From NCBI RefSeq assembly GCF_913060805.1, contig NZ_CAJXTC010000020.1, forward strand, positions 1-64,000: a DNA stretch of 64,000 nucleotides, written 5' to 3'. The notes under the pieces were generated by a model. It ran no database searches. It had not been told where the DNA came from and saw only the letters and a program-made list of their open reading frames with translations. Each line of letters opens with the position of its first letter. The first letter of the stretch is position 1. The translations under genes were made by a program, and so were the position numbers. Positions 1 through 56,206 of this stretch are shown here, one piece after another. This DNA comes from an uncultured Draconibacterium sp. GTDB taxonomy: Bacteria; Bacteroidota; Bacteroidia; Bacteroidales; Prolixibacteraceae.

Positions 1-103
1 CTAATCTCATTTTTACTGGCATAATTCTATTTTTTAATTTTGAAAAATGTGGCGCAAAGATAGTATAAATTTCTGTTTCTGAAACTTTTACTCCTTTATT
101 TAT

Positions 104-139
104 AAAAAAGGATGCCATCTCTTATAAAAGATGGCATCC
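104..139 (-). terminator. Intrinsic terminator of the OmpA-type lipoprotein gene
   Basis: An 11-bp perfect stem (GGATGCCATCT with AGATGGCATCC) and an 8-nt loop are followed, in minus-strand reading, by six U. It lies about 60 nt beyond the stop codon of the lipoprotein gene. Positions 1-103 are AT-rich and I see no gene there. Confidence 0.85.
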
Positions 140-196
140 TCATCACAATGAAAACGAAAAAAATACATTCATTTTCTCCGAATTTCTTATGCGAAA

Positions 197-883
197 TTAA
201 TTCTCGCCAGCCTCTGCTTTTGCAGCATTTACCATGTCTTCGTTAGCCGTGATGGTAAACTCTACGCGACGGTTTTGAGCTTTTCCTTCTTTGGTATCGT
301 TTGTTGCCCGCGGCTGCGATTCACCCATTCCTACCGAATTTAAGCGCGATGCCATAATTCCGTTTGTTTTCAGGAAACTAACAACCGATGCTGCACGTCT
401 TTCCGACAAGGATTGATTGTACGCTTCTGCACCATCGCTGTCGGTATGCCCGATTACCAAAATATCAGTATCCGGATATTTATTGAAAATCTCCACCAGT
501 TTGCCAATATTTGCCTTTGAATCAGCGGTAAGATCTGAACTATCAAATCCAAAACGCACATCGGCATTTTCGTCCAGAATTAACTGAATTCCTTCTTCGC
601 TACGAACAACTTCGGCACCGGGCATTGTTGTTTCAATTTCTTCAGCCTGCTTATCCATTTGTTTGCCAATGACAGCACCGGCACCACCACCAACGGCAGC
701 ACCAACCAAAGCACCTGCCGCACGGTTATCTTTTCCGCCAATTAACGCGCCTAATGCAGCTCCTGCCGCTACACCAATTCCTGCGCCTTTTTGCGAAGAG
801 TTTGCATTTTGCAACGAGCTGCAACTATTTAAAAATATTCCTGCCACAAAAAGGACAAGAACCACTAATGTTGTATTCTTCAT
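197..883 (-). CDS. Gly-zipper OmpA-family peptidoglycan-binding lipoprotein
   Basis: The protein is a 228-aa outer-membrane lipoprotein expected to anchor the envelope to peptidoglycan. Residues 1-21 form a lipoprotein signal ending in the lipobox LNSC (Cys21). Residues about 34-80 are a Gly/Ala-rich glycine zipper (repeated GAALGALIGG-like steps), which usually means a membrane-associated helical hairpin. Residues about 108-215 are an OmpA C-terminal domain, with the GHTDSDG segment and the closing NRRVEF motif that bind diaminopimelate-type peptidoglycan. It ends just before a strong terminator. The lipocalin-like gene upstream lies only 10 nt away on the same strand, so the two may be co-transcribed. 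The family call is secure; the exact physiological role is not visible. Confidence 0.93.
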   Translation of the reverse strand: MKNTTLVVLVLFVAGIFLNSCSSLQNANSSQKGAGIGVAAGAALGALIGGKDNRAAGALVGAAVGGGAGAVIGKQMDKQAEEIETTMPGAEVVRSEEGIQLILDENADVRFGFDSSDLTADSKANIGKLVEIFNKYPDTDILVIGHTDSDGAEAYNQSLSERRAASVVSFLKTNGIMASRLNSVGMGESQPRATNDTKEGKAQNRRVEFTITANEDMVNAAKAEAGEN

Positions 884-5459: not shown

Positions 5460-5603
5460 CACACTTCCCCGATTATTACTTCCTCGTTTTTATTGATTAT
5501 AGTGTACAGCTAAAATTAAAGCTGTGTGTATAACTATTTATGGTTACGCTGCGTAAAAGATGAAACCGTTTAAAATTTAGTAATAACCAAAAAACTGAAA
5601 GTT

Positions 5604-5813: not shown

Positions 5814-5922
5814 TCGATTACGAATTACATGCCCCAAACTTTTCGATTGCAGAATTGATCGTAATTTCTGAAATATCTTTCAGGGAACAAGTTGTTTTGG
5901 CTGCTGCCAGCCGCTAATTACA

Positions 5923-10981: not shown

Positions 10982-11635
10982 TTAAAGAGTTAATAGCTCA
11001 AACAACTCTTCCACATCCTCGGCAAAATAATCAGGATTGGCAGCACGCAGATCTTCTTCTTTTCCAAAACCGTAGCCCACTGCAATGGTAGAAATTTCGT
11101 TTTCGTTACCGCCTTCAATATCGTAAACCGTATCGCCAACCATCACAATTTCTTCCGAAGGAACCAATTGTTGCATCGTAAGCACATCTGCAATAATCTG
11201 GTTTTTAGTGGCTTTTTTCGCATGATAATCCGCGCCTTTTAACTGAATAATGTAGCGGTCCATTTCAAAATGCTCGATAATTTTATTGGCGTACTTTTCC
11301 AGTTTTGCGGTGGCCACATACATTCTTTTTCCCTGAGCATCCAACTCGGCCAGCAATTCCATAATTCCATCGTACGGATCGTTTTGGTGCCAGCCGTGCT
11401 CACCATAATATTCGCGAAAATAATCCACCGCCAGTTTTGTGTCGCGCTCGTTCATTCCAAACTGCGTGCTAAATCCCCACTGCAGCGGAGGCCCGATAAA
11501 AGTGTCCAGAATATTTTCGTGATAACCGTCAACCTGCATTTGCTCCAACGCATATTTCAGCGAGTTTTTAATGCCCTGCGTATTGTCGGTGAGCGTGCCG
11601 TCGAGGTCGAATATAATGTGTGAAAATTGTGCCAT
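10982..11635 (-). CDS. HAD-superfamily phosphatase (Gph/PpaX-like)
   Basis: A 217-aa HAD hydrolase. Motif I is DLDGTLTDN with the nucleophile Asp, motif II the T in YVATAKLEKYA, motif III the Lys in the KKATKNQI segment, and motif IV MVGDTVYDIEGG. The alpha-helical cap between motifs I and II is of the PGMB type, so phosphoglycolate phosphatase, pyrophosphatase or sugar-phosphate phosphatase activity is possible. The LQWGFSTQFG segment after motif I is typical of the 5'-nucleotidase-like subfamily in Bacteroidota. The substrate cannot be fixed. It is divergent from metG. Confidence 0.9.
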   Translation of the reverse strand: MAQFSHIIFDLDGTLTDNTQGIKNSLKYALEQMQVDGYHENILDTFIGPPLQWGFSTQFGMNERDTKLAVDYFREYYGEHGWHQNDPYDGIMELLAELDAQGKRMYVATAKLEKYANKIIEHFEMDRYIIQLKGADYHAKKATKNQIIADVLTMQQLVPSEEIVMVGDTVYDIEGGNENEISTIAVGYGFGKEEDLRAANPDYFAEDVEELFELLTL

Positions 11636-11689
11636 TCAACTAAAATTTTTGCGAAGGTAATAGTTTTAAAATAGCTCTCTGATTTTTGT

Positions 11690-11697
11690 TATCTTTG
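11690..11697 (+). promoter_or_regulatory. Candidate -7 box of metG
   Basis: TATCTTTG matches TAnnTTTG fully and lies 42 nt upstream of the metG ATG. A TTTT-rich tract takes the place of the -33 element. Confidence 0.5.
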
Positions 11698-11739
11698 CAG
11701 CCCTAAAATTGATTTTCAAGAACGACAAAATATTTCGAA

Positions 11740-40201: not shown

Positions 40202-40924
40202 TTAAACAAACTTTTCGCGTTTCTGTAAATTAAAAAGGCCGTACAAAACGAACACCAAAGTGGCGATCCCCATAAAAATCCGGTTCTTGCGGATAATTCC
40301 AATCCAAATTACCTCGTTCAGGTTATCCGGTATTTCGAACGGATTCAGAAAAATATCCCACTGTGTATTCCGCATTCCGGTATCCTGTAGAATAATTAAT
40401 GCCACTCCAATTAACACCATTGCCACAGCTGTTCCGTTTCCGTTTTTAATGACAGTTGAGAACATAAACGACATCGATCCTAAAAATATGATCGGGTACA
40501 TTAACTGGTACGACATTTCCAGCAGGTTAATTTTGTACAGCAGTACCGAAGCCAACGCTGAAAAAAGAACGATAATGACAAATACGAGCGTATAAATCAT
40601 TACCAAACGCACCAGCCAAACTTTATAACGGTAGTTCGGAATTCCGAAAAGTATTTCAAGCATTCGCGAATCATCGTCGTTTTGTATGCCAAAAACCGAC
40701 GGATAGAAAATGAGCAACACGCCCGGGAAAATCAGCAGTGTATAAACCACATCTTCCGACATGGAGCCGCCGTTATAAACCGTTTGAATGGCAAAAAACA
40801 AAAAGAATGCAAGTGCTGCTATTAAAAACCAAATAAACCGGTTGGCAAAGATGATTCTTAAGTTATACCGTATCATTTTAATTAAAATATACAGCCTGTT
40901 TTTTATATCGAATTGTCTTTCCAT
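40202..40924 (-). CDS. ABC-2-type membrane protein
   Basis: A 240-aa polytopic protein, last gene of the ABC/RND cluster. Six hydrophobic segments are visible, with FIWFLIAALAFFLFF, VVYTLLIFPGVLLIF, YTLVFVIIVLFSALASVLL, LMYPIIFLGSMSFMFST, VAMVLIGVALIIL and a final one near the C terminus. The QNDDDSRMLEILFGIPNYRYKVW segment after TM2 is the coupling-helix-type region of ABC-2 permeases of this group. It lies 6 nt after the RND-ABC fusion and probably supplies the membrane half for the ATPase fused there. The substrate is unknown. Confidence 0.8.
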   Translation of the reverse strand: MERQFDIKNRLYILIKMIRYNLRIIFANRFIWFLIAALAFFLFFAIQTVYNGGSMSEDVVYTLLIFPGVLLIFYPSVFGIQNDDDSRMLEILFGIPNYRYKVWLVRLVMIYTLVFVIIVLFSALASVLLYKINLLEMSYQLMYPIIFLGSMSFMFSTVIKNGNGTAVAMVLIGVALIILQDTGMRNTQWDIFLNPFEIPDNLNEVIWIGIIRKNRIFMGIATLVFVLYGLFNLQKREKFV

Positions 40925-40930: not shown

Positions 40931-43900
40931 TTAAACAAAGTCTTTTAACAAACACAAATAAGCATCCTCGAGATTTGGCAACACACTAACTGCGTCGGGT
41001 GCCGGCTTTTCTTTCGCCAAACAACGCATCTTAATATTTTCGCCATCGCGCATGTGGTGAACAATCATTTGTTTATTGGCCATATTATCGAATTCCTTAG
41101 CCGGAACCGAGAACTGCCACACAAAATTATTACCCATATTCACCATATCGTTTGGTGTTCCGAAATATTTCAGATTCCCTCGGTTAATTACCGCTACCTG
41201 GTTACACGAGCTCGAAATATCCTCGATAATGTGCGTCGAGAAAATTACGATACGTTCGCGACTCAGCTCTACCAACAAGTTACGGAAACGAATACGTTCG
41301 CGCGGGTCGAGACCTGCGGTAGGTTCGTCAACCACCAAAATACGTGGCAGATTCAGCAGAATTTGTGCAATACCAATACGTTGTTTCATACCGCCCGAGA
41401 ATGCACCGATTTTATCTGTCCGGCGTTCCCACATATGAACACTTTTCAGTACATATTCCAAACGGTCTTCGCGCGTTTTGGTGTCTTTTATACCTTTTAG
41501 AATGGCCTGATAATCGAGGAATTCCCAGGCCGACATATTTTCGTAGGTACCAAAAGCCTGTGGCAAATAACCAATCAAACCTTGCAGCTCTTCGCGGTAT
41601 TTTTGGGTGTCCATTCCGTTTATCCAGATCTTACCGTAACTCTGCTCGAGCACACCGGTGATAATCCGCATCATGGTTGATTTACCGGCGCCGTTTGGTC
41701 CAAGCAAACCAAACATACCCGTTTTAATTTCCAGCGAAACACCGTTTAACGCCCTGAATGGTTTCTTGCGTTTTCCGATAACCGGAATCTGGCGAACCAT
41801 GTTAAAGTAACCACGGCGAAGTCCGCCAAAACGTCCTTCAATTCGCGCAATATTCACATCTTTATTATGGATGTATTCTGCCGTTGCATAGAACACCAGC
41901 AAAATGTACCAGATAATTGCAATGAAAATAACCATTCCAAGGTTATCCCAATCTTTGTAGAAATAGAGAAGGAAAACAAGTGGTACGATCCAGAATAGAA
42001 TATTATAAATCCATTTATTCAGCTTCAGATAAAAAGCTTTTCCTGTTGCTTCGTGTTTATTGATAAGCACCTGATTTAGCGGCACTCTTAACAAGAACAG
42101 GAAGAAGAAAACGCCGTGCGACAACACCCACATCCACAAATGACTTTCGATGTAAAAGAAGGTGAAATAAGTCACAAAAATAAACAGCGGCACCTCCCAA
42201 ATGAGATCTGAAAAATCGCGGAGATGTTTATAATCTTTTGTCAGGCCGGCACGTTCACGAATTTTTAATCCCGATTTCCACTCGCGCATAAAACGCGAAT
42301 CGCGGTCGTAAATTTTCACCAGCCTGCGAACTGTAATTCTTATCGGTTCGTTTTCATCCACAACTTTTTCGCTGGCCTGGCGCAAACTGGTCATTGTAAA
42401 AGCTACAACTCCCGGCACCAAAACAATCAGGAGAATAAAATCGAGCAGTTGCCAAACAAAACTATCCACGCGCAGATAGATAAAAATGGCTCCGACAATA
42501 AACACCGTTAACATTCCCAATTTTAGGCCAAGATGTAAGGATTTAATCCAATCGAGCGCATTTTCCATTCCGGCGTATAATGTTGGAATGAAAACCAAAG
42601 TAAGGATTGTACTTAACGCCAAACCGCCAATTACAGTAATGGCAAACGGTGCGCCAATGGCACCAACATATTCAGCCTGTCCCATTGCCAGTGGGAATAA
42701 CGCAACAATGGTTGTAATAGCTGTAATCAGAATCGGGCGAACACGCGAAAGACCGGCGGCCATTAAAGCACGAGATTTCCGGTAGCCCCGCTTTCGGAGA
42801 ATGTTGGTGTAATCAATCAGAATAATTCCGTTGTTCACCACCACTCCAATCAGGATAATAAAGCCCATTAAAGTGTTGGCGTTAAACAGGCTGTTTCCTG
42901 TAAAGATCAGTGCCAGGAATGATCCGATGGCAGCCAACGGAATAGAGAAAATAAGTACAAACGGTGTTGATACTGATTCGAAAACCGACGCCAAAATCAT
43001 TAAAATTAGAATGAATGCCGCGGCAATCAAGAACTTGAATTCGGCATACTGATCTTCTTCGTGAATTACCTCTACAGCAACTCCCGAAGGCAGTTTGTAA
43101 GCACCGATTATATCGTCAATTTCAAGACGATAAGCTTCAAGCAGATCATTCGATTCGCTGGCTTCGTCAACAAAACTATAGGTTAATTCAATCTGTTTTT
43201 CCTGGTTTACACGGGTAACGCTGGCCATTCCTTCGGCATACACCATATCGGCCAGCTCGTCCATATCGTAAGTAGCGCCCTGCGTATTGCTAACCTGCAA
43301 ACGACGAAGATCTTCAATTCCCTTTTCATCTTCATCCTCTTCAACACCATCGGGCAATTTTTCTTTGATAACAATCTCGTACTCATCCGTGCCCTGCTTA
43401 AAATTCACACCGGAGGTAAACTCGCGGGTAAACGTTCCCAGCTCCGACATAATATTCTGAAGCGTAATTCCATATTCGGTAAGCAGCATCTGGTTGAAAT
43501 ACATATGTACTTCGGGCCGGTTGTTCGACACGCTGATGTTTGCGCGACGAATCGATTCCAGGTCTTCGATGTAGTAGAGTAAATCTTCGGCTACACCTTT
43601 CATTACCTCAAAGTTTTCGCCTTTTATAACTACCCGCTCTTGGTTCGAGCCGATCCCCATAAACTGCTGAAATCCCTGAGTTCCTGAACGACCACCGCCG
43701 CCACCACGGAAACTGGCACTCGATGTTGGTGCTTCAAGTCCAACTTCTCCCTGCGAAACGTTGCCAATGCGGTCTTCAACATCTTGTTTGATTTCTGCAA
43801 TGGTACGGTCATCAATATCTTTATAATCTTCGCGGAGAATGAAAGTCAGAATTGCTTCTTCAGCCTCAATATTTGCTGACAAGTCTTGTTTTTCGGCAAT

Positions 43901-45649
43901 GTCTTCCAGGCGGCTTTCCACATCGGCAACAACTTTGTCGGTTGCTTCCAGCGTTGTTCCGGTTGGCATGGTTACATAAATATTGAACTGCTCTTCTTCA
44001 ACTTCCTGCAGGTTGGTAACACTAACTGCCAACACAATAAATACAGTTAAAAAGAAGAACACCAACGCACCAATTATGGTACGTGCCGGTACGCGCATAC
44101 TGGCTTTCAGCAGCAGAATATAAATTTGGATTATGCGGTTATTGGTCGTAACCTTTTCGTAAAATACGTTGTGTTGCCGTTTTTTACGCAACAGTAAGTG
44201 AGCTGCCATTGGAATTAACAGCAAGGCCACAAATAACGAAACAATCAGCGTTGAAATAATGGAAACGCCAACGTGGTTACCCAGCAGTTTCACCATGTAA
44301 TCGGTAGAGAAAACGAATGGTAAAAATACCGTAACGGTTGTAAGCGTTGCCGCTACAATTGAGCGCCAAACCTCTTTTGTTCCCTGCGTTACCGATTGCT
44401 CGGGACTCATTTTATTCCCCGAGAGCCGGTATATATTTTCGAGCACCACAATACTATTGTCGAGCAGCATACCAATGGCCAAAACAAGACCTACCAGTGT
44501 TAAACTGTTCAGCGAAATATTAAATGCATAAAACAGGTTAAAAGCAGTAAATACCGAAATTGGAATGGCCAGAGCAATAAATGAAACAATGCGCAGATTT
44601 TTCAGGAACATCCAAAGTACAAAAATGGCCAACAAACCTCCAACCAGTGCCAAATCAATAATCTGATCGATGTTTTTCTCCATGGTATCGGCCAGGTTGG
44701 TCTGCACCACAATTTGTACATCTTTGGCAGCCAGCTTTTTATTGAGTTCGGCAATCTCTTCCTGCACGTTATGCGACAATTCGATAAGGTTGGCCTGCGA
44801 ATCGCTCACCAGGCTCATCGAAACCGCGTCCAATCCGTTTATACGACTTATCGATGTTTCTTCTTTAACCCCAAAAAATACGTCGGCTACATCTTTTAAG
44901 TAGATCGGGCCATCGGCCACAACAATATTTTCGATGTCAGAAACTTTATCGTATTCGGCCGTAACGTGCACAAAATATTGTTTTTGTGCATCATGCAGAT
45001 AACCGGTAAATGTTCGGTTGGTAGAGTTGCTTGAAATAGCACTCTGAATTTGCGCCGGCGTAATTCCGTAAGCTTCGCAGGCACCTGCATCGTAAGTTAC
45101 TTCAATCGAACGTTCTTTACCACCGTAAACCGACACAGAAGCTACCCCGTCGATGTTTTCCATCTGAGCGGTAATTTCCTGGTCAACGATATTACGCACA
45201 CGATCAACTCCCCCGCTACCACGAATCTGCAGCTCCATAAACTGGTTGGTGAGCTGATCCATATCAACGCGGTTAACCGTTACAATGAAGTTATCGTCGA
45301 GTTCGCCTGCAATCAGGTCGATCTTTTCCTGCAATTTCAGGAAGGTGTATTTAAAGTTGACGTTCTGTTTAAAATTTACCTGTATGGATGCCGAGCGGTT
45401 GTTGATAAACGACTCCATATCTTCAATGCCTTCCATCGTCCCGATCGCTCCTTCAACCGGAATAACCGCCTGGTTTTCCAGGTAGCTCGGATCCACCTCA
45501 ATCCGCGACTGAATCTGGACGAACAGCATCGGGAGCTCGGCATTTGGCATGAGTTCCACCGGCAACTGTTTGTATGAGATATAACCCAACATGGTTAATC
45601 CCAAAAACAGCATACTGATGAATATTTTTCTGTTGATAATGAATTTCAT
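40931..45649 (-). CDS. RND efflux pump fused to membrane domain and ABC ATPase
   Basis: One uninterrupted 1572-aa frame. Residues 1 to about 1025 are an RND permease: TM1 MKFIINRKIFISMLFLG, porter domains, and TM4 GMLLDNSIVVLENIYR, in which the usual second Asp is Asn. The second TM bundle reads LMGFIILIGVVVNNGIILIDY. Residues about 1028-1297 add roughly six further TM helices not found in RND pumps (for example LLDFILLIVLVPGVVAF and GVFFFLFLLRVPL). Residues about 1298-1572 form a full ABC ATPase: Walker A GPNGAGKST (from 1317), signature FSGGMKQRIGIAQ, Walker B ILVVDEPTAGLDP and switch STHIIED. The ATPase resembles the stand-alone ATPase at 55313-56206. A Gly-rich loop (FRGGGGGRSG) lies in the porter region. 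I know of no characterised protein of this architecture. Confidence 0.92.
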   Translation of the reverse strand: MKFIINRKIFISMLFLGLTMLGYISYKQLPVELMPNAELPMLFVQIQSRIEVDPSYLENQAVIPVEGAIGTMEGIEDMESFINNRSASIQVNFKQNVNFKYTFLKLQEKIDLIAGELDDNFIVTVNRVDMDQLTNQFMELQIRGSGGVDRVRNIVDQEITAQMENIDGVASVSVYGGKERSIEVTYDAGACEAYGITPAQIQSAISSNSTNRTFTGYLHDAQKQYFVHVTAEYDKVSDIENIVVADGPIYLKDVADVFFGVKEETSISRINGLDAVSMSLVSDSQANLIELSHNVQEEIAELNKKLAAKDVQIVVQTNLADTMEKNIDQIIDLALVGGLLAIFVLWMFLKNLRIVSFIALAIPISVFTAFNLFYAFNISLNSLTLVGLVLAIGMLLDNSIVVLENIYRLSGNKMSPEQSVTQGTKEVWRSIVAATLTTVTVFLPFVFSTDYMVKLLGNHVGVSIISTLIVSLFVALLLIPMAAHLLLRKKRQHNVFYEKVTTNNRIIQIYILLLKASMRVPARTIIGALVFFFLTVFIVLAVSVTNLQEVEEEQFNIYVTMPTGTTLEATDKVVADVESRLEDIAEKQDLSANIEAEEAILTFILREDYKDIDDRTIAEIKQDVEDRIGNVSQGEVGLEAPTSSASFRGGGGGRSGTQGFQQFMGIGSNQERVVIKGENFEVMKGVAEDLLYYIEDLESIRRANISVSNNRPEVHMYFNQMLLTEYGITLQNIMSELGTFTREFTSGVNFKQGTDEYEIVIKEKLPDGVEEDEDEKGIEDLRRLQVSNTQGATYDMDELADMVYAEGMASVTRVNQEKQIELTYSFVDEASESNDLLEAYRLEIDDIIGAYKLPSGVAVEVIHEEDQYAEFKFLIAAAFILILMILASVFESVSTPFVLIFSIPLAAIGSFLALIFTGNSLFNANTLMGFIILIGVVVNNGIILIDYTNILRKRGYRKSRALMAAGLSRVRPILITAITTIVALFPLAMGQAEYVGAIGAPFAITVIGGLALSTILTLVFIPTLYAGMENALDWIKSLHLGLKLGMLTVFIVGAIFIYLRVDSFVWQLLDFILLIVLVPGVVAFTMTSLRQASEKVVDENEPIRITVRRLVKIYDRDSRFMREWKSGLKIRERAGLTKDYKHLRDFSDLIWEVPLFIFVTYFTFFYIESHLWMWVLSHGVFFFLFLLRVPLNQVLINKHEATGKAFYLKLNKWIYNILFWIVPLVFLLYFYKDWDNLGMVIFIAIIWYILLVFYATAEYIHNKDVNIARIEGRFGGLRRGYFNMVRQIPVIGKRKKPFRALNGVSLEIKTGMFGLLGPNGAGKSTMMRIITGVLEQSYGKIWINGMDTQKYREELQGLIGYLPQAFGTYENMSAWEFLDYQAILKGIKDTKTREDRLEYVLKSVHMWERRTDKIGAFSGGMKQRIGIAQILLNLPRILVVDEPTAGLDPRERIRFRNLLVELSRERIVIFSTHIIEDISSSCNQVAVINRGNLKYFGTPNDMVNMGNNFVWQFSVPAKEFDNMANKQMIVHHMRDGENIKMRCLAKEKPAPDAVSVLPNLEDAYLCLLKDFV

Positions 45650-45682: not shown

Positions 45683-46081
45683 TTAGCTGATATTCACAGA
45701 TTTTTTATTGGTAAATAATTTCCTCCGTATTTCTGGTTTCTTCCCAAAGTTTAGTAGCAAACCAACTTCTATATTCGTCGCTTTTAAGTAATTTATCAGT
45801 TGATACTCATGCGCTTCAGTCACAGTTTCGGTTGCTTTTAGCTCAAGCATTACAACATCCTCAACAATAATATCCGCATAATATTCTCCAACTACATCAC
45901 CCTGATAACTTACTTTTATTGGTTTCTGCGATTCAACTTTCAACTCCTCATTTTGCAACTCTATTAAAAGCGCATTGTGATAGACTTTTTCAAGAAAACC
46001 ATATCCCAATTCATTGTAAACCTTATAGAAGCATTTAATTATCGCTTCGGTTAAATCAGAATATTTATAATCCATTTTCAT
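45683..46081 (-). CDS. GxxExxY family protein
   Basis: A 132-aa protein named after the motif seen here as GYGFLEKVY. The fold is PD-(D/E)xK nuclease-like: YYADIIVEDVVMLELKA carries the Asp and ExK. Homologues are widely scattered in Bacteroidota, often as single genes in odd places with similar flanking sequence. Here it sits between two RND pump genes (33 and 39 nt away). The flanks contain ATCAGCG/GATGACG words at both ends, suggesting insertion. A role in transport is unlikely. Confidence 0.93.
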   Translation of the reverse strand: MKMDYKYSDLTEAIIKCFYKVYNELGYGFLEKVYHNALLIELQNEELKVESQKPIKVSYQGDVVGEYYADIIVEDVVMLELKATETVTEAHEYQLINYLKATNIEVGLLLNFGKKPEIRRKLFTNKKSVNIS

Positions 46082-46120: not shown

Positions 46121-49100
46121 CTAATTCTTCTTCACAAAAACACTCCTCACCCTATCCAAAACATCGTAAACACAAGGGATTACAATAAGTGTAAGTAAGG
46201 TTGAAGTTACCAAACCGCCAACCACTGCCAGTGCCATTGGCGAACGCAACGATGCACTTTCGCCAAAACCAACGGTAAGTGGTAACAGGGCTAATATGGT
46301 TGTTAAACTGGTCATAACAATTGGACGTATACGTTGCTGCCCGGCTTGCAGAATAGCTTGTTTTCGTTCTACTCCCTCGCGGATAAGCTGATTGATCCGG
46401 TCGACCAGAATAATCGAGTCGTTTACGGCAATACCCACCAACATAATCACCCCGATAATGGCCATAATGTTGAATGTTTTTCCGAGAATGAAGAAGACAA
46501 GAACACTACCCACCACAGCCAGCGGAATAGTTAAAAGAATAGTAAACGGATGAATAAGCGACTCGAACTGAGAAGCCAGCACCATGTATACCAACACAAT
46601 AGAAAGCAACAGTGCAAAAGTCAGGTTCGTCAACGATTCCTGACGTTTTTCTTCTTCACCGGTTACCATAATACGATAATCGGGTAATAAGTCGATACTT
46701 CCTGTTTGCAAGCGAATATCGTTTGCCACATGATCCAACGGAATACCGTCTTCCAATTGGGCTGTAACTTTTCCTATGCGGTTTTGATTTCTTCTGAAAA
46801 TTTCTTTTGGCGATACGCCATAACTGATATCGGCAATTTCGCTTAAGCGGAAAACCTGGTCGCCCGAAGTGATGATCAGCGAACCAATTTCATCGATACT
46901 TTTCTCCGGAACTTTAATGGTAATGTCCTGCATCTCGCCACTGCGTTCCAGTTCGCCGGCATCTTTACCCTGCAACTGATCCTGCATTTGCGTAATTACA
47001 CTGCTGATATCAATATTGTACATTCCGGCGCGCATGCGGTCAACATGAATTTCAACCTCAGGAGCACCGTCTTCAATCGATGTTTGAATATTAAACAGGC
47101 CGTTAACCCCCTGCATTTTTTCTTTCACCTGGTTAACAACGCGCTCAATTTCGTCCAGCTCTTCGCCACGAACTTCAACAACGACAGGTGCTTCGTCGGT
47201 TCCAAGAATCGACTGCAGTGCACTTTCTTCCTGCGAAAAACTTACTTCCAGTCCCTCGATATTTGCGGTTAACTGATCGAGTGTTTTTACAATACTTTCG
47301 GTTGAAATGGTTGATTCAGGCTTCAGAATTACTTTTAACTCTGCTGTATTTTCACCTTCGAAAACAGCATTTTGATCGCCCGAAATACTTGACGATGGAC
47401 CAGCCTGCGAATAAATTTTATCCAAATTTTCGCCCAGGTAATCCATTAAAATACCTTCCAGGTTTCTCACTGTCGACTCCGTGCGCTCCAACTCTGTTCC
47501 TTCCTGCAATTTCAGATTAACAGTAAGTTCGTGTGTTTGTGTTTTTGGCATAAATTCTGTACCGATGTGCGGAATCAACAATCCGGCTCCTCCAATGGCC
47601 AAAGTTGTAATAAGAATTACTACCCACTTGGCATCAATTACTTTTGACAAGAAACGACCGTAACCGCCAACTTTTACCGATTTTGATTTCATCGGAGCTT
47701 TCTTGTTTCGGTAGAAACGGTGGTACATCATCGGGATTAAAAAGATAGCCACAACCAACGACGATATCAGCGAAAATGCTACCGTCCAGGCCTGATCTTT
47801 AAACAACTCGCCCGAAGCACCGTGCAAATAAACAATTGGCAAGAAAACGATGATGGTGGTAAGCGTTGATGCGGTAATTGCCCCGCCAACCTCGGCGGTT
47901 CCGTTAATTGCTGCATCTTTTACACTCATGCCGTTTTCGTGGTTCCGGAAGATATTTTCGAGAACCACAATGGCATTATCAACCAACATACCCGCACCCA
48001 AGGCGAGCCCTCCCAAAGTCATAATATTTATGGTGAGATGGTTGAAATACATGAGGTTGAACGTGGCCACAATCGAAATTGGAATAGCAACACTTACAAT
48101 CAGTGTAGTTCCGAAACGGCGCAGGAAAACAAATAAAACAACAATTGCCAGCAGAATACCCAGCAAAGCAGTTTCCTGCACTTCGCCAATGGCACTGCTG
48201 ATAAAGCGGCCCTGGTTGGTTACGCCAATCAGTTCGTAGCCCGGAAGTGCCTTTTCAATATTTACCAATGCTTCGTTGATCTGATCAACCGCATTTACCG
48301 TATTGAATTTTGTCTCTTTATAAATGGAAAGCCCCAAACAACGTTCGCCGTTAATGTGAACAATGTTTGTTGGTTCTTTATTACCGATAGAAACCGCAGC
48401 CACATCTTTCAGATAAACCGGGGCCATTGAAACCCGGTTTTGATTGGTAGTAGTAGTTTCGGTGCTGCTAACAGCTTTATAACCAACAATCAGATTCTCA
48501 AAATCCTCAACGGTTTGCAACATCGATACACCTTTTACAATGTATTGTGTACCCATGTCGGTAATTTGTCCACCGGATACGTTACGGTTAAAATTCTGGA
48601 TGCGCGATGCCACTTCGTCCATGGTAAGTCCCTGCGCATCGAGACGGTAAATATCGGTTTCAATTACTATTTCACTCTCTTCCTGACCCGAGATTTCAAC
48701 CTCGGCAACACCTTCCAAACGTACCAACTCGTTTCTCACGTAGTTTTCAGCCACTTTTCGCAGCTCGTTCATATTGGTAATTTCGTTGTGCTTAAGCCCA
48801 ATTATCATTACCGGGGTTGTGTTCGGATCGTGTTGAGTAATCTGTAGTTCGTCAATATCAGAATTCTGGGTAAGCGTATTCAAGGCCTTTTGCAGGTCGA
48901 GAAAAGCTTCATCCATATCTTTATTCCATGCGTATTCTACTGTTATTTGTGCCGATCCTACCCGCGATGAAGAAGTTACCTGAATTACGTCGGACTGGCG
49001 AATGGCAAGCGCTTCGATGTTTTCGACAAACTGCTGCTCCATTTCTTCCGGAGGCCGCTCGCCCGAAGTCACTTCCACAAAAATGCGTGGCGAATTCAGA

Positions 49101-49219
49101 TCGGGAAACAGATCGACTCCCAGCTTATCGTACGAAATGTAGCCCAGCAACAAAACGCCAAGCACCACCATTAATACGGTAACCGGGTAATCGACAGAAA
49201 ATTTCGTTAATTTTTTCAT
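46121..49219 (-). CDS. RND efflux transporter permease
   Basis: A 1032-aa HAE/MFP-type RND pump of standard length. The N terminus has KFSVDYPVTVLMVVLGVLLL (TM1) and the PDLNSPRIFVEVTS opening of the porter domain. TM4 is GMLVDNAIVVLENIF, with the second charged position Asn, and the C-terminal TM bundle has AIIGVIMLVGIAVNDSIILVD. It probably forms trimers that use the proton gradient to push substrates into the adaptor-TolC channel. It is encoded with its own adaptor and TolC protein and followed by the RND-ABC fusion. The two pumps are too different to be a recent duplication. Confidence 0.95.
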   Translation of the reverse strand: MKKLTKFSVDYPVTVLMVVLGVLLLGYISYDKLGVDLFPDLNSPRIFVEVTSGERPPEEMEQQFVENIEALAIRQSDVIQVTSSSRVGSAQITVEYAWNKDMDEAFLDLQKALNTLTQNSDIDELQITQHDPNTTPVMIIGLKHNEITNMNELRKVAENYVRNELVRLEGVAEVEISGQEESEIVIETDIYRLDAQGLTMDEVASRIQNFNRNVSGGQITDMGTQYIVKGVSMLQTVEDFENLIVGYKAVSSTETTTTNQNRVSMAPVYLKDVAAVSIGNKEPTNIVHINGERCLGLSIYKETKFNTVNAVDQINEALVNIEKALPGYELIGVTNQGRFISSAIGEVQETALLGILLAIVVLFVFLRRFGTTLIVSVAIPISIVATFNLMYFNHLTINIMTLGGLALGAGMLVDNAIVVLENIFRNHENGMSVKDAAINGTAEVGGAITASTLTTIIVFLPIVYLHGASGELFKDQAWTVAFSLISSLVVAIFLIPMMYHRFYRNKKAPMKSKSVKVGGYGRFLSKVIDAKWVVILITTLAIGGAGLLIPHIGTEFMPKTQTHELTVNLKLQEGTELERTESTVRNLEGILMDYLGENLDKIYSQAGPSSSISGDQNAVFEGENTAELKVILKPESTISTESIVKTLDQLTANIEGLEVSFSQEESALQSILGTDEAPVVVEVRGEELDEIERVVNQVKEKMQGVNGLFNIQTSIEDGAPEVEIHVDRMRAGMYNIDISSVITQMQDQLQGKDAGELERSGEMQDITIKVPEKSIDEIGSLIITSGDQVFRLSEIADISYGVSPKEIFRRNQNRIGKVTAQLEDGIPLDHVANDIRLQTGSIDLLPDYRIMVTGEEEKRQESLTNLTFALLLSIVLVYMVLASQFESLIHPFTILLTIPLAVVGSVLVFFILGKTFNIMAIIGVIMLVGIAVNDSIILVDRINQLIREGVERKQAILQAGQQRIRPIVMTSLTTILALLPLTVGFGESASLRSPMALAVVGGLVTSTLLTLIVIPCVYDVLDRVRSVFVKKN

Positions 49220-49288: not shown

Positions 49289-50347
49289 TTATAAAATCAC
49301 TTTAACTTTTGAATTATCGCGGAGTGTTTCAAATCCTTTAATAATCAAACGGTCGTTTTGGCTGAGGCCTTCAGTAACCTCAATTTCATCCTGGTTTGAA
49401 ATACCTGTTGTGATTCGACGATCGTTGGCAGCGCTGTTACGCCCAACAATAAATACATATTTTCCGCGCGAACCGGTCATAATCACGTCTTTCGGGATTA
49501 CAATGGTACTGTCTTTTTGCGCTGTAATAATGTTCGCTTTTATAAACATTCCCGGGCGCAGTTTCAGCTCAGGGTTATCAATTTCGAGTTTACCAGCAAA
49601 TGTGCGTGTTTCGTCGCTGATAATTGGCGACAACTCAGTTACATGTCCGGTAAGCGTATCTTCAGTAAGCGTATAATTTGTAATCATTACTTCCTGTCCG
49701 GTGGTTACTTCCGAAATGTTTTTTTCCGGTAAGTTGATCTCAACGTACATTTTGTTGTAGTTCATCAGGCTAACCATGCTTTCGCCGGCCGACACACGAA
49801 CGCCTTCGGTGTAATATGGCAGCGCAACAATAATTCCCGAGAAAGGAGCCACAACCTGCATTTTTGCCAACTGAATTTCAGAGCTTTCGTAGTTGTTTTT
49901 GGCAGTAATCATCGACACTTCCGAGTTACGCATTTCGAGCAGTGTAACACCACCTTTTTCGTACAACGACTTCTGCTTTTCGTATTCCTGCTCCGAAATC
50001 TCAAGATTCAGTTTTGTCGACTCGATATTCAGTCCGTTCAGGTATTCTGCATTTTCCAGTTTCACAATAACCTGACCTTTTTCAACGCGGTCGCCCAATT
50101 GAAATTTGCGCCCCGTTCTCGGATTGGTTTGCAACAGGTAATTTCCTTCAATTTCAGAACTCAATTCGGTATCGTACACGGCTTTTGCAGTTCCGGTAGT
50201 ACTTACAAATTGCTGAATACTTTTAAGTTTGATGTTTTCAACTGAAACAGGAACAGCTAACTCAGTTGACTCAGAACCGGTTTGGTTGTTACACGAAATG
50301 GCGGCAACAACAACACCTAACAGGATAAGTAATTTTATATGCTTCAT
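49289..50347 (-). CDS. RND periplasmic adaptor (HlyD/MFP family)
   Basis: A 352-aa membrane fusion protein. The N-terminal signal ends with a lipobox (AAISCNNQ, Cys19), so it is a lipid-anchored adaptor. The barrel-sandwich part includes LGDRVEKGQVIVKLEN and VVAPFSGIIVALPYYTEGVRV, with a coiled-coil hairpin between them (about 105-150). The beta-barrel domain ends in VPKDVIMTGSRGKYVFIV. It bridges the RND pump encoded downstream and the TolC channel encoded upstream. Spacing to the TolC gene is 20 nt and to the RND gene 69 nt. Only one adaptor is present for two RND-type pumps. Confidence 0.95.
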   Translation of the reverse strand: MKHIKLLILLGVVVAAISCNNQTGSESTELAVPVSVENIKLKSIQQFVSTTGTAKAVYDTELSSEIEGNYLLQTNPRTGRKFQLGDRVEKGQVIVKLENAEYLNGLNIESTKLNLEISEQEYEKQKSLYEKGGVTLLEMRNSEVSMITAKNNYESSEIQLAKMQVVAPFSGIIVALPYYTEGVRVSAGESMVSLMNYNKMYVEINLPEKNISEVTTGQEVMITNYTLTEDTLTGHVTELSPIISDETRTFAGKLEIDNPELKLRPGMFIKANIITAQKDSTIVIPKDVIMTGSRGKYVFIVGRNSAANDRRITTGISNQDEIEVTEGLSQNDRLIIKGFETLRDNSKVKVIL

Positions 50348-50367: not shown

Positions 50368-51864
50368 TTATTCTTGATTGTCAATCATATACAATTCCTC
50401 AGGAATAATAGCTTCGTTTGTTTCGAAATCGTAAAGCGACTGTATTTTAAGGTTTAGTAATTCAATTTTATAATTTATAAGTGCCTGACTTAGGGCAACT
50501 TTTTGCGACGAAAGCTGGTTTTGATACAGGTTCAAATCCATACCTGTCAGGTCGCCGTTTTCGTAACGTTCCAGGTTGATTTCGTAAGTTAACTGGGCGT
50601 TACGCTCATTTTGTTTTGCCAAATCAATCTGGTTTAACTGGTTTTGAATGTTACGGTAAACCTGGCGAATATCAACCACAATTTGTTTACGCTCCTGATC
50701 GAGGTTCAACTCTTGCGACTGTATCGCTGCTTCGGCAGCGGCAATTCGGGCTTTACGCTCGCCCCAGTCGAAAATCGGGATATTGAAACTAATGCCTACC
50801 GACGGGCTTTTTGTAGGATTCTGGTAAATATTACCCAGGTCGCTATTATCGCCGGTAATACCAAAACGCAGGTTCACATCTCCACGGAACTCATTCTGAG
50901 CTTTGGTACGGATAAGATCGAACTGACTGGTTTCCACATCAATTTCGCGCTGGCGTAATTCCATTCTCGAAGCCAAACCGTTTTCAATGGCTTTGTCCAG
51001 ATCAACAGGAACAGGATTTACGCTTACATCAGCCAAAATCATAATGTCTTCGAAAAGATCCATTCCCAGGTAAAGTTTCAACTGGTCTTTGGCATTTTCG
51101 AAAGTTACTTCGCTATTTTGCAAAGTAGATTTTGCCGATGCAAGGTTTAACTCAGCCTGGTACTCTTCTTCTTTTGCAGCCAAACCGGCTTCAACCTTGT
51201 TTTTAATTATATCGTAACTTTTCTGTGTATTTTCCAGCTCGTCTTTTGCAATCGACAAATTCATTTGCGCCATGTAAACATTGTAAAAGAACTCGGTAAC
51301 ACTTCTCTCCAAATTCAGGTACTGCATGGCGTAGCTGATGCGGGCATTTTCGAAATTCAGCTCCAATTCCTTTAACTCCAGTTTTAAAGTATTGTAGGTG
51401 AATAATGGCTGATTCAGGTTCAGATACAGGTTATTAAAAAAGACCTCACTTTCCGTGTTCGACGAAGTAGAATTATTACTCGACCAGCCAAATTCGTTGG
51501 TTAACGAGATAGTACCATCGGTTATTAAAATTGGCTGAGCCACTGTAAACAAGGCACTTGACTCAAAGTTTTCGTTGGTGTACCACTCCGACACACGGTT
51601 ATCGAAACGTCGTTGATTACTGTAGTTTACCGGATCAACCTGCAACGAAAAGCGCGATTTCAGTGCGGCTCGCTGGGCTTCCAGGTTTTTCTGGTAGCGC
51701 TCAAGATTTAATAACGACAGCCTCAAATCCGGACTCCCCACTTCGGCAATACTCATTGCCCTGTCGAGGGTTAAGGCCTCTTGCGCCTGAACAGCAAAAG
51801 TTGCAGTCGCCAAAAAGAATAGGGCAATTGCCAGCTTTCGCATAAGTTTGATTTTTGTTTTCAT
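50368..51864 (-). CDS. TolC-family outer-membrane channel
   Basis: A 498-aa protein with a signal peptide (about residues 1-27). It has the two repeated TolC halves: ALTLDRAMSIAEVGSPDLRL opens the first helical hairpin, and long helices with heptads follow (LELKELELNFENARISY, LSIAKDELENTQKSYDIIKN). The second half has SPSVGISFNIPIFDWGERKARI, the typical strand-helix transition. The length is slightly above E. coli TolC. It would form the trimeric exit duct shared by the pumps in the cluster. The 87 nt between it and the permease gene contain no strong terminator. Confidence 0.94.
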   Translation of the reverse strand: MKTKIKLMRKLAIALFFLATATFAVQAQEALTLDRAMSIAEVGSPDLRLSLLNLERYQKNLEAQRAALKSRFSLQVDPVNYSNQRRFDNRVSEWYTNENFESSALFTVAQPILITDGTISLTNEFGWSSNNSTSSNTESEVFFNNLYLNLNQPLFTYNTLKLELKELELNFENARISYAMQYLNLERSVTEFFYNVYMAQMNLSIAKDELENTQKSYDIIKNKVEAGLAAKEEEYQAELNLASAKSTLQNSEVTFENAKDQLKLYLGMDLFEDIMILADVSVNPVPVDLDKAIENGLASRMELRQREIDVETSQFDLIRTKAQNEFRGDVNLRFGITGDNSDLGNIYQNPTKSPSVGISFNIPIFDWGERKARIAAAEAAIQSQELNLDQERKQIVVDIRQVYRNIQNQLNQIDLAKQNERNAQLTYEINLERYENGDLTGMDLNLYQNQLSSQKVALSQALINYKIELLNLKIQSLYDFETNEAIIPEELYMIDNQE

Positions 51865-51951: not shown

Positions 51952-54900
51952 TTATAATTCCACGATTTTTACCGCGTCGGCGTATATCATTCGCAGATCG
52001 GTTTTATCCGTTAATTCAATAACTGCTTTATCACTTGAGAAATAAAATGAGCCCAAATGTACCCAACCGGTTTCGGCACTTTGCGAATCGAGGTAAGCTT
52101 CTTCCTCACCGTCGTCGGCATGAATAATAAAGTTCAAGCTTCCCTTTTCCTCTCCACGGTTACGGCCAAATCCACGGCCTTTATAAAAGTGGTAATACAC
52201 ATCGTAATAACCGGCTTCTTTCACCGGAACATTCCAGCGGGCAACCTGCTCGCCATTTCCACCTTTTATGTAATAAGCCGAACGAACGTACTCGCCATAA
52301 AACTCGTCGCTGGTAGTGGCGGTCCAGCTAATTGGAGGCCTCCACCAGTTTACTCTTGCATATTTTTGTTTTGTCTCTTCCTCTTTTACAATCAGTTTTT
52401 CGAGCAAACTCACCTGGTGATTTTCGGTCACTTCAAACCCCGGATCTTCGTTATCTACGATCTCTTCATTCGGTAATTTTGTTTGTACCGCTGTTGAACT
52501 GATACGTTCACCTTCCCAAACCCGCGCTTTCAGATCTTCTTCCACATCGCGGAACATTTCCATGTAAGTTTGCGGAACGTTTTTCGATGTCAACGAATTG
52601 AATACCACCATTCGCGGAGTTCCATCAAAAAGGTAGCTCATTTCTTTGGTTTGGTGAGCTGTTAACTCAATCAGTTTGTCAACCGTATCTTCCGAGCCCA
52701 TTCCCGGAGGGCCAAAACCACGGCCTCCGCCACCACCTCCGCCGGCAAGACGGAAGGTCAATTTTATTAATCCATCAACATCCGAGAAGTTGGTAACTTT
52801 CAGCGAAATCATGGTTTTCATGGCATCGCCCGATTTTACTTTTACACCTTTTATTGGCGAAACCAGGTAACCCGGCAGCGCTTTGGCTTTAAACCAGCTG
52901 TTCATCATTGGTTCCAGCTCGATGCCAAATTTGGCTTTAATCTCTTCGTCGAATTCTTCGAACGAAATATTCTGGTACTTGTACTTTTCGAGTACACCAC
53001 GCAGAAAATCTTCAAAATCTTCCTGTCCGGCTTCCAGTTTTATGGTTGAGAAAAGCACATCGCCTTTCAGTTTAATCACATCGTTTACAATATCGCTCTG
53101 ATCGGGATCTGCGAGAATTTCTTCGAACGAATAATCCTGCAAAGCAATGTTGGCCATAATCTCGGGACTTTCGCCACTCATACTACTCATAAACAACGAG
53201 CGCATATCGGTTGACTGGCTTTTCAAATAAGCCTCGAAAACACGGTTGGTGATCGGCCATTTATCCGATTGAATATTGTTTTGGAAATTGTACAACCAAG
53301 GAAAAATAAAATACGGATTTGGCGACTGTGTCATGCTCATTTCTCCTCGCGACCATTGACGATCGGTCTCATTTTGTTCGGTAAATTTCTCTAAAAACTG
53401 CCCGATAACGCGCAACTCCTTATCTTCATCGGTCATTTCGGCACCGCCGCCACGGCCTCTCCAACGGCCCATTCGTTCTTTTTGCTGTTCAAAATCGGCT
53501 TCGCGGAACATGTAACCTTTTTCCTGAATCAAAACCTGTCCGGGCTGAATAACTTCCTGCACCGATGTCCACATGCGTTCGTAGGTTTTAAACTGCGCCG
53601 GAACCTCGACCAATGCCAGTTTATCGGAATTGTACTCGAGGTTATAACCACGTTTAAAATCTTCGAAACGTTCGTAAATTACCGAAGCCAGCGTGTCTTT
53701 CGATTCCGGGAAAGCCTGGCTGAAATGGTCGTGACCTTCGATGAGCCAAACGCCAAATTCAAAATCATTATGCTTCAGACTTTTATATTCGTATTTTCCA
53801 ATTGCCAGCGAAAGTTGTGTTAGCGGTGTTTGCGGCTCAAAATGGAATTTACCAGCCGAAACTTCTGTCATAACACCTTCCGAAACCGGCTGTAATCCTG
53901 CTTTTGTGTTAACTGTTAACGAATAATCCACAAACTCAGGTTTATACCAACTCACATCATCCGAACTATAGGTAACCCCAACTTTCGGATACCAGTTGGC
54001 TTCGCGAGTAAGTAGCACGTAATCAGGCGTTACAAACGCGTAACGTTTATCAACATTCAGTACAAACTGTCCGTATTTCTCTTGTCGCAATTCTTCGTCA
54101 ACATCCAGGTAACAATACGATTCGTCGATAGTTCCGTCGTAAGTAAATTCAACTTTTGTACTGTCGCCAGGTTGCAAATTCCTATCAGAAACGATCACCA
54201 AATGATCTTCGCGCGAAAATGGTGTTGTCTTTCCGTTTACTTTCAGATCGGTAATTTCCAGGCCGGCATTCAAACTAAAAATCAGTTTCGACAGTGGCTG
54301 TTGCAAATTATTTTTCAACATCATTGCCGACTGTACACTTAACGATTCGCCATTATGATCGAGCACAATATCGTGCGAAAGTACATCGGCCAACGGCTCG
54401 CTAACGTATTGATTATTCAGCTCGACAACATCAGCGCGTAAAGCTTCTGTTTTTTTGAAACTGTTTATATGATTGAAGGCCAGATATCCGGCACCAACAA
54501 TAAATACCAAACTAAAAATAAGCGAAACATAAGTCATCGCTTCCGACTGTGGCAAACGTTTCAGCAAGAAAATGGTAAGGAAAATGAAGCCGGAACCCAA
54601 TCCGAAATATATTCCGCGGTGAATGAGAATTACCCCAAGATTACCAAAGCCAACAATATCGGAACTTAGCATCGGGATGCTGAAAGCCATGTAATCGAAA
54701 ATGTAATAATATTTTGCCTGCAACAAAAAGAGGGTGATACCAATATAACCAAGCACCAGCACAAAAGTAATGGCCTGGTTACGAATTACGCTCATCAGCA
54801 AAAACGACAAACCCATTATAAATACAAGGGTTGGGATGCTTATCAGCACCAGATAAACGCCGTACGAAACCCAATCGATGGGAGTACCTTTGGCCAGCGC

Positions 54901-55302
54901 ATTAAATACAAGTGCCAGAATTACCACCGCAACGTTAAGGATCATAAACACCTGCATGTTACCCAGTGTTTTTCCAATAACGTATTCGCCATTGGTCATC
55001 GAGCGCATGTAAATTACTTCGGTGGTATCTAATTTTTTATCGCGTTTTAAAAAGTCGGAGGCCAAAAACACAGCAATTACAGCCTGGGCCACATTTAAAA
55101 TCAGCAAGTTAAAATACGGGATAGCACTTGGAATTGCGCGAATGGCCCAGCTTTCGCCACCGCCGCCTTCAATCACCATTCCGAAGTTTAATCCGAACAA
55201 TACCAGCAAAGAAAGGATACTGAATATGCGGAAAAACCAGCTGCGAAAAAGTGTTTTCCGCTCGTATTTTGCTATCGAAAATATGTTATGTAACGAAATC
55301 AT
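51952..55302 (-). CDS. ABC-2 permease fused to M1-like region and golvesin-like domain
   Basis: A 1116-aa protein. Residues 1 to about 290 are an ABC-2 permease with about eight TM helices. Residues about 300-780 resemble the periplasmic M1-aminopeptidase region fused to such permeases in other Bacteroidota (KLIFSLNAGLEITDLKVNG, LALVEVPAQFKTYERMW, GQVLIQEKGYMF), but I find no HExxH zinc motif and the region where it should lie is a Gly/Arg-rich stretch (RWRGRGGGAEM), so it is probably inactive. A Gly-rich loop (AGGGGGGGRGFGPPG) precedes a linker. Residues 1001-1116 form a golvesin/xanthan-lyase-like domain (GYYDVYYHFY, GWVHLGSFYF, YADAVKIVEL). It pairs with the ATPase encoded 10 nt upstream. 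Confidence 0.85.
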   Translation of the reverse strand: MISLHNIFSIAKYERKTLFRSWFFRIFSILSLLVLFGLNFGMVIEGGGGESWAIRAIPSAIPYFNLLILNVAQAVIAVFLASDFLKRDKKLDTTEVIYMRSMTNGEYVIGKTLGNMQVFMILNVAVVILALVFNALAKGTPIDWVSYGVYLVLISIPTLVFIMGLSFLLMSVIRNQAITFVLVLGYIGITLFLLQAKYYYIFDYMAFSIPMLSSDIVGFGNLGVILIHRGIYFGLGSGFIFLTIFLLKRLPQSEAMTYVSLIFSLVFIVGAGYLAFNHINSFKKTEALRADVVELNNQYVSEPLADVLSHDIVLDHNGESLSVQSAMMLKNNLQQPLSKLIFSLNAGLEITDLKVNGKTTPFSREDHLVIVSDRNLQPGDSTKVEFTYDGTIDESYCYLDVDEELRQEKYGQFVLNVDKRYAFVTPDYVLLTREANWYPKVGVTYSSDDVSWYKPEFVDYSLTVNTKAGLQPVSEGVMTEVSAGKFHFEPQTPLTQLSLAIGKYEYKSLKHNDFEFGVWLIEGHDHFSQAFPESKDTLASVIYERFEDFKRGYNLEYNSDKLALVEVPAQFKTYERMWTSVQEVIQPGQVLIQEKGYMFREADFEQQKERMGRWRGRGGGAEMTDEDKELRVIGQFLEKFTEQNETDRQWSRGEMSMTQSPNPYFIFPWLYNFQNNIQSDKWPITNRVFEAYLKSQSTDMRSLFMSSMSGESPEIMANIALQDYSFEEILADPDQSDIVNDVIKLKGDVLFSTIKLEAGQEDFEDFLRGVLEKYKYQNISFEEFDEEIKAKFGIELEPMMNSWFKAKALPGYLVSPIKGVKVKSGDAMKTMISLKVTNFSDVDGLIKLTFRLAGGGGGGGRGFGPPGMGSEDTVDKLIELTAHQTKEMSYLFDGTPRMVVFNSLTSKNVPQTYMEMFRDVEEDLKARVWEGERISSTAVQTKLPNEEIVDNEDPGFEVTENHQVSLLEKLIVKEEETKQKYARVNWWRPPISWTATTSDEFYGEYVRSAYYIKGGNGEQVARWNVPVKEAGYYDVYYHFYKGRGFGRNRGEEKGSLNFIIHADDGEEEAYLDSQSAETGWVHLGSFYFSSDKAVIELTDKTDLRMIYADAVKIVEL

Positions 55303-55312: not shown

Positions 55313-56206
55313 TTAAGCGTTAGACCATTGGTTTAGTTTGTTTTCCATAAAATGCACATAAGCGTGCTCCAGATTCGGATCCATGGGTTTTCCCTGGTAA
55401 CCGTCAATTTCATTGGCAACAACCTGCACTTCCCAACCTCCGTCAATCGGGATAGTAGAAATTACAGGGTATTTTTCATTTATCTCAAGGTATTCTTGTT
55501 CAGTTGCTTCAATCAGCCAAACATGGCCTTCGGCTTGTTTTACCAGCTGCTCGGGCGATCCGGCAAAAGCCAGTTTCCCCTGGTTTAACAGCGCCATATT
55601 ATCGCAGGTACTCGAAATATCGCCAACAATGTGTGTCGACAGGATAATAATTACGTCGCGGGTACTAATGGTTGAAAGCAGGTTACGGAAACGGATACGT
55701 TCCTCGGGGTCGAGACCGGTAGTTGGCTCATCAACAATAATAATCTTCGGATCGTTTATCAGCGCCTGGGCAATTCCCAAACGGCGTTTCATACCTCCTG
55801 AAAGTTTATTTGCATTTCTGTCGCGCACTTCAAACAAACCTACTTCTTCAAGCATTTGGTCAACTGCGCTCCGGCGTGCTGCACCGCTTGTCATTCCTGC
55901 CAAACGGGCTGTATAATCAAGAAATTCAGAGGTTTTCAGTTTCGAGAAAAAACTAAAATCCTGGGGTAAATAACCCAACATGGAGCGAATTTCGCGCCGA
56001 TGTTTCGAAAGTTCGTAATCGTTGTAATATACTTTGCCGCTTGTTGGTTTCATTAGAGTTACCAAAATGCGCATAAGGGTTGATTTTCCAGCCCCGTTTG
56101 GCCCTAAAAGGCCAAACATGCCATTCGGTATTTCAAGGTTGAGGTTATTTACAGCGTAACTGCCTCCCTTGTAGATTTTGTTTAGATTTTCTATTTTAAT
56201 ATGCAC
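55313..56206 (-). CDS. ABC transporter ATP-binding protein
   Basis: A 297-aa ATPase, first gene of the ABC/RND cluster. Walker A is GLLGPNGAGKSTLMR, the Q-loop is MLGYLPQDFSFF, the signature LSGGMKRRLGIAQ, Walker B IIIVDEPTTGLDPE, and the switch His STHIVGD. The C-terminal extension (about 215-297) has a small regulatory-type fold. Its sequence parallels the ATPase fused to the RND pump (RIRFRNLL, FGLLGPNGAGKST), indicating paralogs. It lies 10 nt upstream of the permease-golvesin gene and energises it. A near-match TATGCTTTG on the minus strand (56246-56254) may be a promoter element. Confidence 0.95.
   Translation of the reverse strand: MHIKIENLNKIYKGGSYAVNNLNLEIPNGMFGLLGPNGAGKSTLMRILVTLMKPTSGKVYYNDYELSKHRREIRSMLGYLPQDFSFFSKLKTSEFLDYTARLAGMTSGAARRSAVDQMLEEVGLFEVRDRNANKLSGGMKRRLGIAQALINDPKIIIVDEPTTGLDPEERIRFRNLLSTISTRDVIIILSTHIVGDISSTCDNMALLNQGKLAFAGSPEQLVKQAEGHVWLIEATEQEYLEINEKYPVISTIPIDGGWEVQVVANEIDGYQGKPMDPNLEHAYVHFMENKLNQWSNA

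Follow-up and report, generated by a model that had tools for sequence, protein, structure and literature searches.

A conserved RND permease and ABC ATPase on a single chain, encoded in an exporter-like gene cluster of Draconibacterium and its relatives

RND and ABC pumps are the textbook alternatives for powering tripartite efflux, the former being expected to use the proton gradient and the latter to burn ATP. A protein of 1572 residues and an estimated ~175 kDa, encoded in a stretch of 64,000 nucleotides of an uncultured Draconibacterium sp. (contig NZ_CAJXTC010000020.1, assembly GCF_913060805.1; hereafter the window), joins a full RND permease and a complete ABC ATPase within a single chain, and its gene is the sixth in a cluster of seven lying on one strand in the order ABC2, M1perm, OEP, MFP, RND-1, fusion, PERM (Table 1). 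This architecture, of the protein and of the cluster, is well supported, and the cluster as a whole looks like an export machine. The interpretation that we favour, with a confidence slightly above even, is that it encodes an exporter spanning the envelope, with a heterodimeric ABC-2 transporter that would be linked covalently to a heteromeric RND trimer, giving a single system with two kinds of energiser. The component families are known; their combination, and an ATPase interrupted in the manner predicted below, were not found described in titles and abstract openings of the literature or in passages of a review (PMC8277102), which is not proof of their absence from print.

Table 1. Features of the fusion protein and of its gene cluster, in positions of the window
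Feature	Position	Strand	Basis
RND-ABC fusion protein (FUS), 1572 aa	40931..45649	(-)	single ORF; Pfam; kept as a single frame across relatives
RND permease part, residues 1-1028	42566..45649	(-)	Pfam ACR_tran 2-1026; sister to RND-1 in tree
Extra helices TM13-TM14, residues 1040-1089	42383..42532	(-)	AlphaFold helices; hydropathy
Predicted first beta strand of ATPase, residues ~1103-1115	42305..42343	(-)	AlphaFold; alignment to solved ATPases; invariant residues
Predicted four-helix bundle inserted inside ATPase, residues 1143-1262	41864..42223	(-)	AlphaFold
Rest of ATPase and C-terminal extension, residues 1298-1572	40934..41758	(-)	
PERM, 240-aa membrane protein, weakly ABC-2-like	40202..40924	(-)	gene order; ABC2_membrane_3 in some members
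RND-1, unfused RND permease	46121..49219	(-)	Pfam; best other RND match of fusion; tree
Membrane fusion protein (MFP, periplasmic adaptor)	49289..50347	(-)	Pfam HlyD_D23
TolC-like outer membrane factor (OEP)	50368..51864	(-)	Pfam OEP, 3 stretches
M1perm: ABC-2-like membrane part, M1-like peptidase region without HEXXH, Golvesin_C	51952..55302	(-)	Pfam; motif check
ABC2, stand-alone ABC ATPase	55313..56206	(-)	Pfam; 41% match; tree; intact motifs

The fusion gene is read from 45649 to 40931 as a single open frame of 1572 codons followed by a stop, the plus strand of the same interval being rich in stop codons; a preliminary description made from the sequence had placed the gene correctly, with no mention of its strand. 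Pfam detects ACR_tran over residues 2-1026 (E 2.4e-162), corresponding to profile positions 3-1018 of 1021 with both RND halves full-length, and ABC_tran over residues 1301-1445 (E 1.7e-27). An ABC ATPase (NBD) fold was found in the chain, and Walker A (GPNGAGKST at 1317), the Q-loop Gln 1364, the signature SGG at 1418, the Walker B Glu 1442 and the switch His 1473 were all located. The continuous frame, the full RND permease (placed at about 1-1025) and the complete ATPase with Walker A, signature, Walker B and switch His that the preliminary description had put forward are thus borne out. Among the 25 NCBIfam matches listed, of 196, none reaches its cut-off; of the ATPase models in that set, GldA and DrrA score best with the fusion ATPase, far below their thresholds. 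In this respect the domain resembles the GldA-/DrrA-type ATPases of ABC-2 exporters, from which it would differ in being broken by a membrane bundle and in being joined to an RND permease. A defence system was considered and rejected, the 10 PADLOC matches all falling within the ABC part (1290-1491) and looking generic.

The fusion might in principle have been missing from every related genome, as the preliminary description had allowed, but a search of the genomes of 41 relatives found it in 24 of the 25 genomes of the genus, its own included, and the sole genome of the genus without it (G014) is 70% complete. Three of these carriers are single-contig genomes (G005, G007, G012). Among the relatives examined the chain is split nowhere except at contig ends, as in G022, where the gene is spread over two of them, and in G038, where a 1021-aa frame ends at one. 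A profile of the middle region (alignment A1, 18 rows chosen from genus and order matches) identified the fusion in 31 of 247 genomes of the order, belonging to 26 of 173 genera; frames of 1536-1640 aa are present in 27 of these carriers, and the gene of the other four (1252, 914, 567 and 940 aa) is located at the end of a contig. The missing part of the fusion was located on another contig in G046, G112 and G161. In a sample of the phylum 6 of 395 genomes were positive, two of them being the genome studied here and another of the same order, and further carriers were counted in the class of G385 (3/294) and in the order of G333 (2/248); the genus, order, phylum and class samples overlap. Outside its own order the fusion is therefore rare within the phylum, where one further order and one further class contribute a few carriers. 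A scan of named genomes gave 35 loci whose titles include Draconibacterium, Maribellus, Mariniphaga, Tangfeifania and Puteibacter; the 35 loci do not stand for 35 genomes, two of them (L041 and L051) coming from one, and the patterns used were tuned to this group, so that the scan is no measure of spread beyond it. The carriers are a group of environmental bacteria, with Draconibacterium orientale as a cultured example. When the RND part alone was searched in 149 genomes of the order at E 1e-120, no unfused orthologue was found, all 18 positive genomes having the fused form or a form cut at contig ends.

These data bear on the most trivial explanation, an assembly error or frameshift that joined two genes, for which no supporting evidence was found. 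Because the same frame is conserved in independent genomes, of the genus (single-contig genomes included), of the order, of another order and of another class, and because the first strand of the ATPase is placed ahead of the inserted bundle, this explanation is discarded as having a negligible chance of being correct; retention of an open frame of this length across many genomes is far beyond what chance would allow.

The region between the two recognised parts had been described beforehand as one roughly six-helix membrane segment spanning residues ~1028-1297. Hydropathy does give six hydrophobic stretches, over residues 1037-1261, but they do not constitute one inserted domain: according to the AlphaFold model and structure alignment, TM13-14 are followed by the first beta strand of the ATPase and then by a four-helix bundle lying inside the ATPase. 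The strand at ~1103-1115 is present when the region is modelled with the ATPase and is not formed when the ATPase is omitted, and four residues in it (I1105, V1111, K1112 and Y1114) are invariant. The alignment to solved ATPases starts at this strand, model residues 76..542 matching 1vpl 2..239 over 234 aligned residues at 1.7 A, with an output that consists of the end points only. Taken together, these predictions indicate that the fusion ATPase is interrupted after its first beta strand by the bundle; such an arrangement, if true, would be an unusual way to attach a motor to the membrane. The MacB family combines an ATPase with a four-helix ABC permease that has a large periplasmic domain; the inserted bundle has four helices joined in the AlphaFold model by short loops, and a fold search of the PDB gave no confident match for it. 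Profile comparison of the middle region with PERM and with the membrane part of M1perm gave no significant match, and a search of plasmids gave none. In one locus of the order (L112, from G102) a fusion frame of 1536 aa matches the middle-region profile at positions 1-106 and 184-273 only, which suggests that the bundle is shortened or diverged there.

Conservation of the key residues was followed in 67 fusion sequences (the window and 66 others), of which 50 are distinct; grouping at 90% identity reduces them to 35 clusters, and the most divergent member is 49% identical to that of the window. Lys 1323, Gln 1364, SGG 1418-1420, Asp-Glu 1441-1442 and His 1473 of the ATPase are invariant in all 35 clusters, and so are Asp 397 and Arg 971 of the RND part. 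In AcrB the proton relay is formed by a TM4 Asp pair, a TM10 Lys and a TM11 Arg. The fusion retains one TM4 Asp (397); the adjacent position 398 is Asn in 33 of 35 clusters and Thr in two, where the alignment gives Asp in MdtB, and position 939 is Asn in 35/35, where MdtB has Lys in TM10, both being positions with a role in proton coupling in AcrB. The two Asn residues agree with a reading that we regard as improbable, namely that the RND half has become a structural periplasmic conduit of an ATP-driven exporter and is no longer a proton pump, which could hold alongside any of the other views of the ATPase's role; the invariance of Asp 397 and Arg 971 in 35/35 clusters argues against it, as does the finding of Asp-Asn in proteins that are not fused. 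In RND-1, TM4 has Asp-Asn in all 42 of the 65 rows that carry letters there (the gap in the other 23 probably comes from cut loci) and TM10 has Asn in 65/65, and a further RND of the window genome (L007, identified by pattern) also has Asp-Asn. The Asp-Asn pair is consequently not peculiar to the fusion, which, as RND-1 has the same residue pattern, has lost nothing that its unfused sister retains. To judge from these residues both engines seem to be retained, with some reserve about the proton coupling of the RND half. If that is true, a chain whose ATPase motifs and one RND Asp-Arg set are so strictly constrained would offer a direct system for studying how work is divided between ATP and the proton gradient.

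The neighbourhood of the fusion is conserved as well. Its stop codon is separated by a gap of six bases from the start of PERM (ORF 40924-40202), and PERM lies downstream of it in 34 of the 35 named-genome loci and in 12 of 12 further loci; the one locus without PERM (L053) has ~670 bases of sequence past the fusion. In L061, a close relative of L053, PERM lies ~675 bases downstream. Upstream, the 35 loci have RND-1 in 30 cases, MFP in 29, and OEP and M1perm in 27 each, with the misses falling at contig starts or ends. All 12 further loci contain OEP, MFP, RND-1, fusion and PERM, and 10 contain M1perm, the analysed stretch of the other two (L113 and L119) beginning inside or beside OEP. As in tripartite efflux, a membrane fusion protein and a TolC-like factor are encoded beside the inner membrane pump. 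In samples of the order drawn alike, the fusion occurs in 18/149 genomes and M1perm in 18/149, both being present in 17, and ABC2 at an identity of at least 60% was found in 19/148, among 22 matching genomes; of the two discordant genomes, G035 is 61% complete and has its own ABC2 at a contig end, and the contig of G160 stops right after MFP. Alignment A2 comprises the window and 56 loci (without L066, L086, L101, L102 and rows at least 93% alike), and alignment A4 the window and 49 of those 56 loci with segment ends set by hand (without L016, L051, L059, L068, L095, L100 and L107).

The two permease-like proteins of the cluster are less readily classified. ABC2_membrane_3 is matched by 6 of 46 PERM members with E values of 1 or less, the best being 8e-5, and the PERM of the window gives no match (alignment A3, the window and 45 of 48 selected permeases, without L059, L081 and L099). 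In the M1perm of the window Golvesin_C scores above its cut-off, and ABC2_membrane_2 and Peptidase_M1 below theirs (Peptidase_M1 22.2 bits against a cut-off of 27.7); Peptidase_M1 is likewise under its cut-off or absent in six of six relatives. No significant profile similarity was detected between PERM and the membrane part of M1perm, so that the two do not show up as a pair of paralogues.

The ATPases and the RND proteins do form such pairs. When the fusion is compared with the rest of the genome studied here, its closest RND is RND-1 and its closest ATPase is ABC2 (41%), which has the full set of ATPase motifs intact. In a tree of 36 ATPase domains, the 12 from fusions group with nine ABC2s (support 99), apart from 15 others of the genome, which represent 15 of 20 own-genome stretches (five were dropped by a length and Walker A rule) and a subset of its matching ATPases; in the RND tree, 11 fusion RNDs group with 11 RND-1s (support 99), apart from 11 other RNDs of the genome. 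The outgroups of both trees are same-genome proteins only (15 ATPases and 11 RNDs). Elsewhere, three ATPases in other genomes are 41-45% identical to ABC2 and each is followed by a stand-alone protein of ~1200 aa with weak similarity to M1perm (19-25% over parts); we take these pairs to be the ABC ATPase and permease/M1 aminopeptidase of Bacteroidota. They have no RND match beside them in the stretches examined and keep HEXXH...E in 3/3 cases, whereas HEXXH is absent from the M1perm of the cluster in 11/11 members, window included. These comparisons suggest that in this cluster such a stand-alone ABC pair may have been joined to an RND system. The peptidase region of M1perm may have become non-catalytic, perhaps serving as a binding module.

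Since a sister of each half (ABC2 and RND-1) and a second permease are encoded in the cluster, the fusion is probably a subunit of a larger complex, and the sister relationship of the ATPases together with the co-occurrence of the genes in the order favours one complex over two. In the envelope-spanning exporter proposed here, the single chain of the fusion would supply both an RND subunit and the ABC ATPase attached to it, with TM13-14 and the bundle inserted past the first beta strand holding the ATPase at the membrane. The fusion ATPase and ABC2 would form a heterodimer working two ABC-2-type permeases, PERM with the former and M1perm with the latter, and these would load substrate from the inner membrane or the cytoplasm into an RND trimer composed of fusion and RND-1, heteromeric as in the 2:1 trimer of MdtB and MdtC. 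Export would then proceed through the MFP and the TolC-like channel to the outside, ATP-driven loading coming first and proton-driven efflux second. The cargo is, at a guess, a lipid-like or lipopeptide envelope component. A difficulty of the model is that an RND trimer and an ABC dimer differ in symmetry; speculatively, if one or two of the three RND subunits were fusions, a single ATPase pair would be possible, which would ease the mismatch. The most specific version, in which one chain ties the ABC-2 heterodimer to the heteromeric RND trimer so that ATP-driven loading is mechanically linked to proton-driven expulsion, and in which the ATPase itself is threaded through the membrane by the inserted four-helix bundle, is held, as a whole, as a tentative proposal with somewhat less than an even chance.

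The gene order agrees with the earlier suggestion that the fused ATPase may drive the 240-aa permease encoded next, and makes PERM probably its partner. The constancy of this order (34/35 and 12/12 loci) would also suit a rather unlikely alternative in which the fusion ATPase drives PERM only, as a homodimeric ABC-2 exporter merely co-localised with the RND permease for hand-over of substrate, ABC2 and M1perm being a separate exporter. ABC2 adjoins M1perm as in the stand-alone two-gene relatives, and with full motif sets in both ATPases each could work as a homodimer; it is the sister relationship of the ATPases and the co-occurrence of the genes in the sampled order genomes that speak against this separation. 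MacB and FtsEX work by mechanotransmission, and it may also be imagined that the RND pump itself is the target of the ATPase and is opened or assembled on ATP binding, in a MacB- or FtsEX-like manner with the bundle carrying the motion and PERM as an accessory. One chain does tie the ATPase to the RND part via the bundle and TM13-14, and the ATPase motifs are strictly conserved, but PERM is nearly always downstream, some of its members resemble ABC-2 permeases and no precedent turned up in the literature search, which leaves this possibility with a low probability, slightly below that of the structural conduit.

Compared with known systems, the heterodimer-trimer exporter favoured here resembles MdtABC and AcrAB-TolC in having an RND permease, an MFP and a TolC-like factor in one cluster and, as with MdtB and MdtC, two paralogous RNDs; unlike them, one of its RNDs bears TM13-14, the four-helix bundle and an ATPase, and the cluster adds a second ATPase and two permease-like proteins. 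With MacAB-TolC it shares an ABC ATPase alongside an adaptor and a TolC-like channel; to our knowledge, the chain of SecDF, another possible comparison, has no ATPase. According to the review cited above (PMC8277102), the MacB ATPase is joined to its own ABC permease, whereas here the ATPase is joined to an RND, and SecDF is a protein of the RND superfamily through which the proton gradient helps an ATP-driven machine. A conserved chain with both engines would, if true, show that RND and ABC can be combined in one machine.

Some loci contain additional sequence. In L119 (G261), ~930 bases lie between RND-1 and the fusion (5494-6422) and ~880 bases with a 214-aa ORF between the fusion and PERM (11128-12007). 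In the window, a 132-aa PDDEXK_3 ORF, which we take to be of the GxxExxY type, lies between RND-1 and the fusion (45683-46081, minus strand); a relative occurs at that spot in five of the 35 named-genome loci (L038, L039, L040, L044 and L057), so that it looks like an occasional guest of the cluster. Downstream on the same strand, the window has a gene for a U32-family peptidase (38292-39551, minus strand); 19 of the 35 named-genome loci have a relative close to the cluster.
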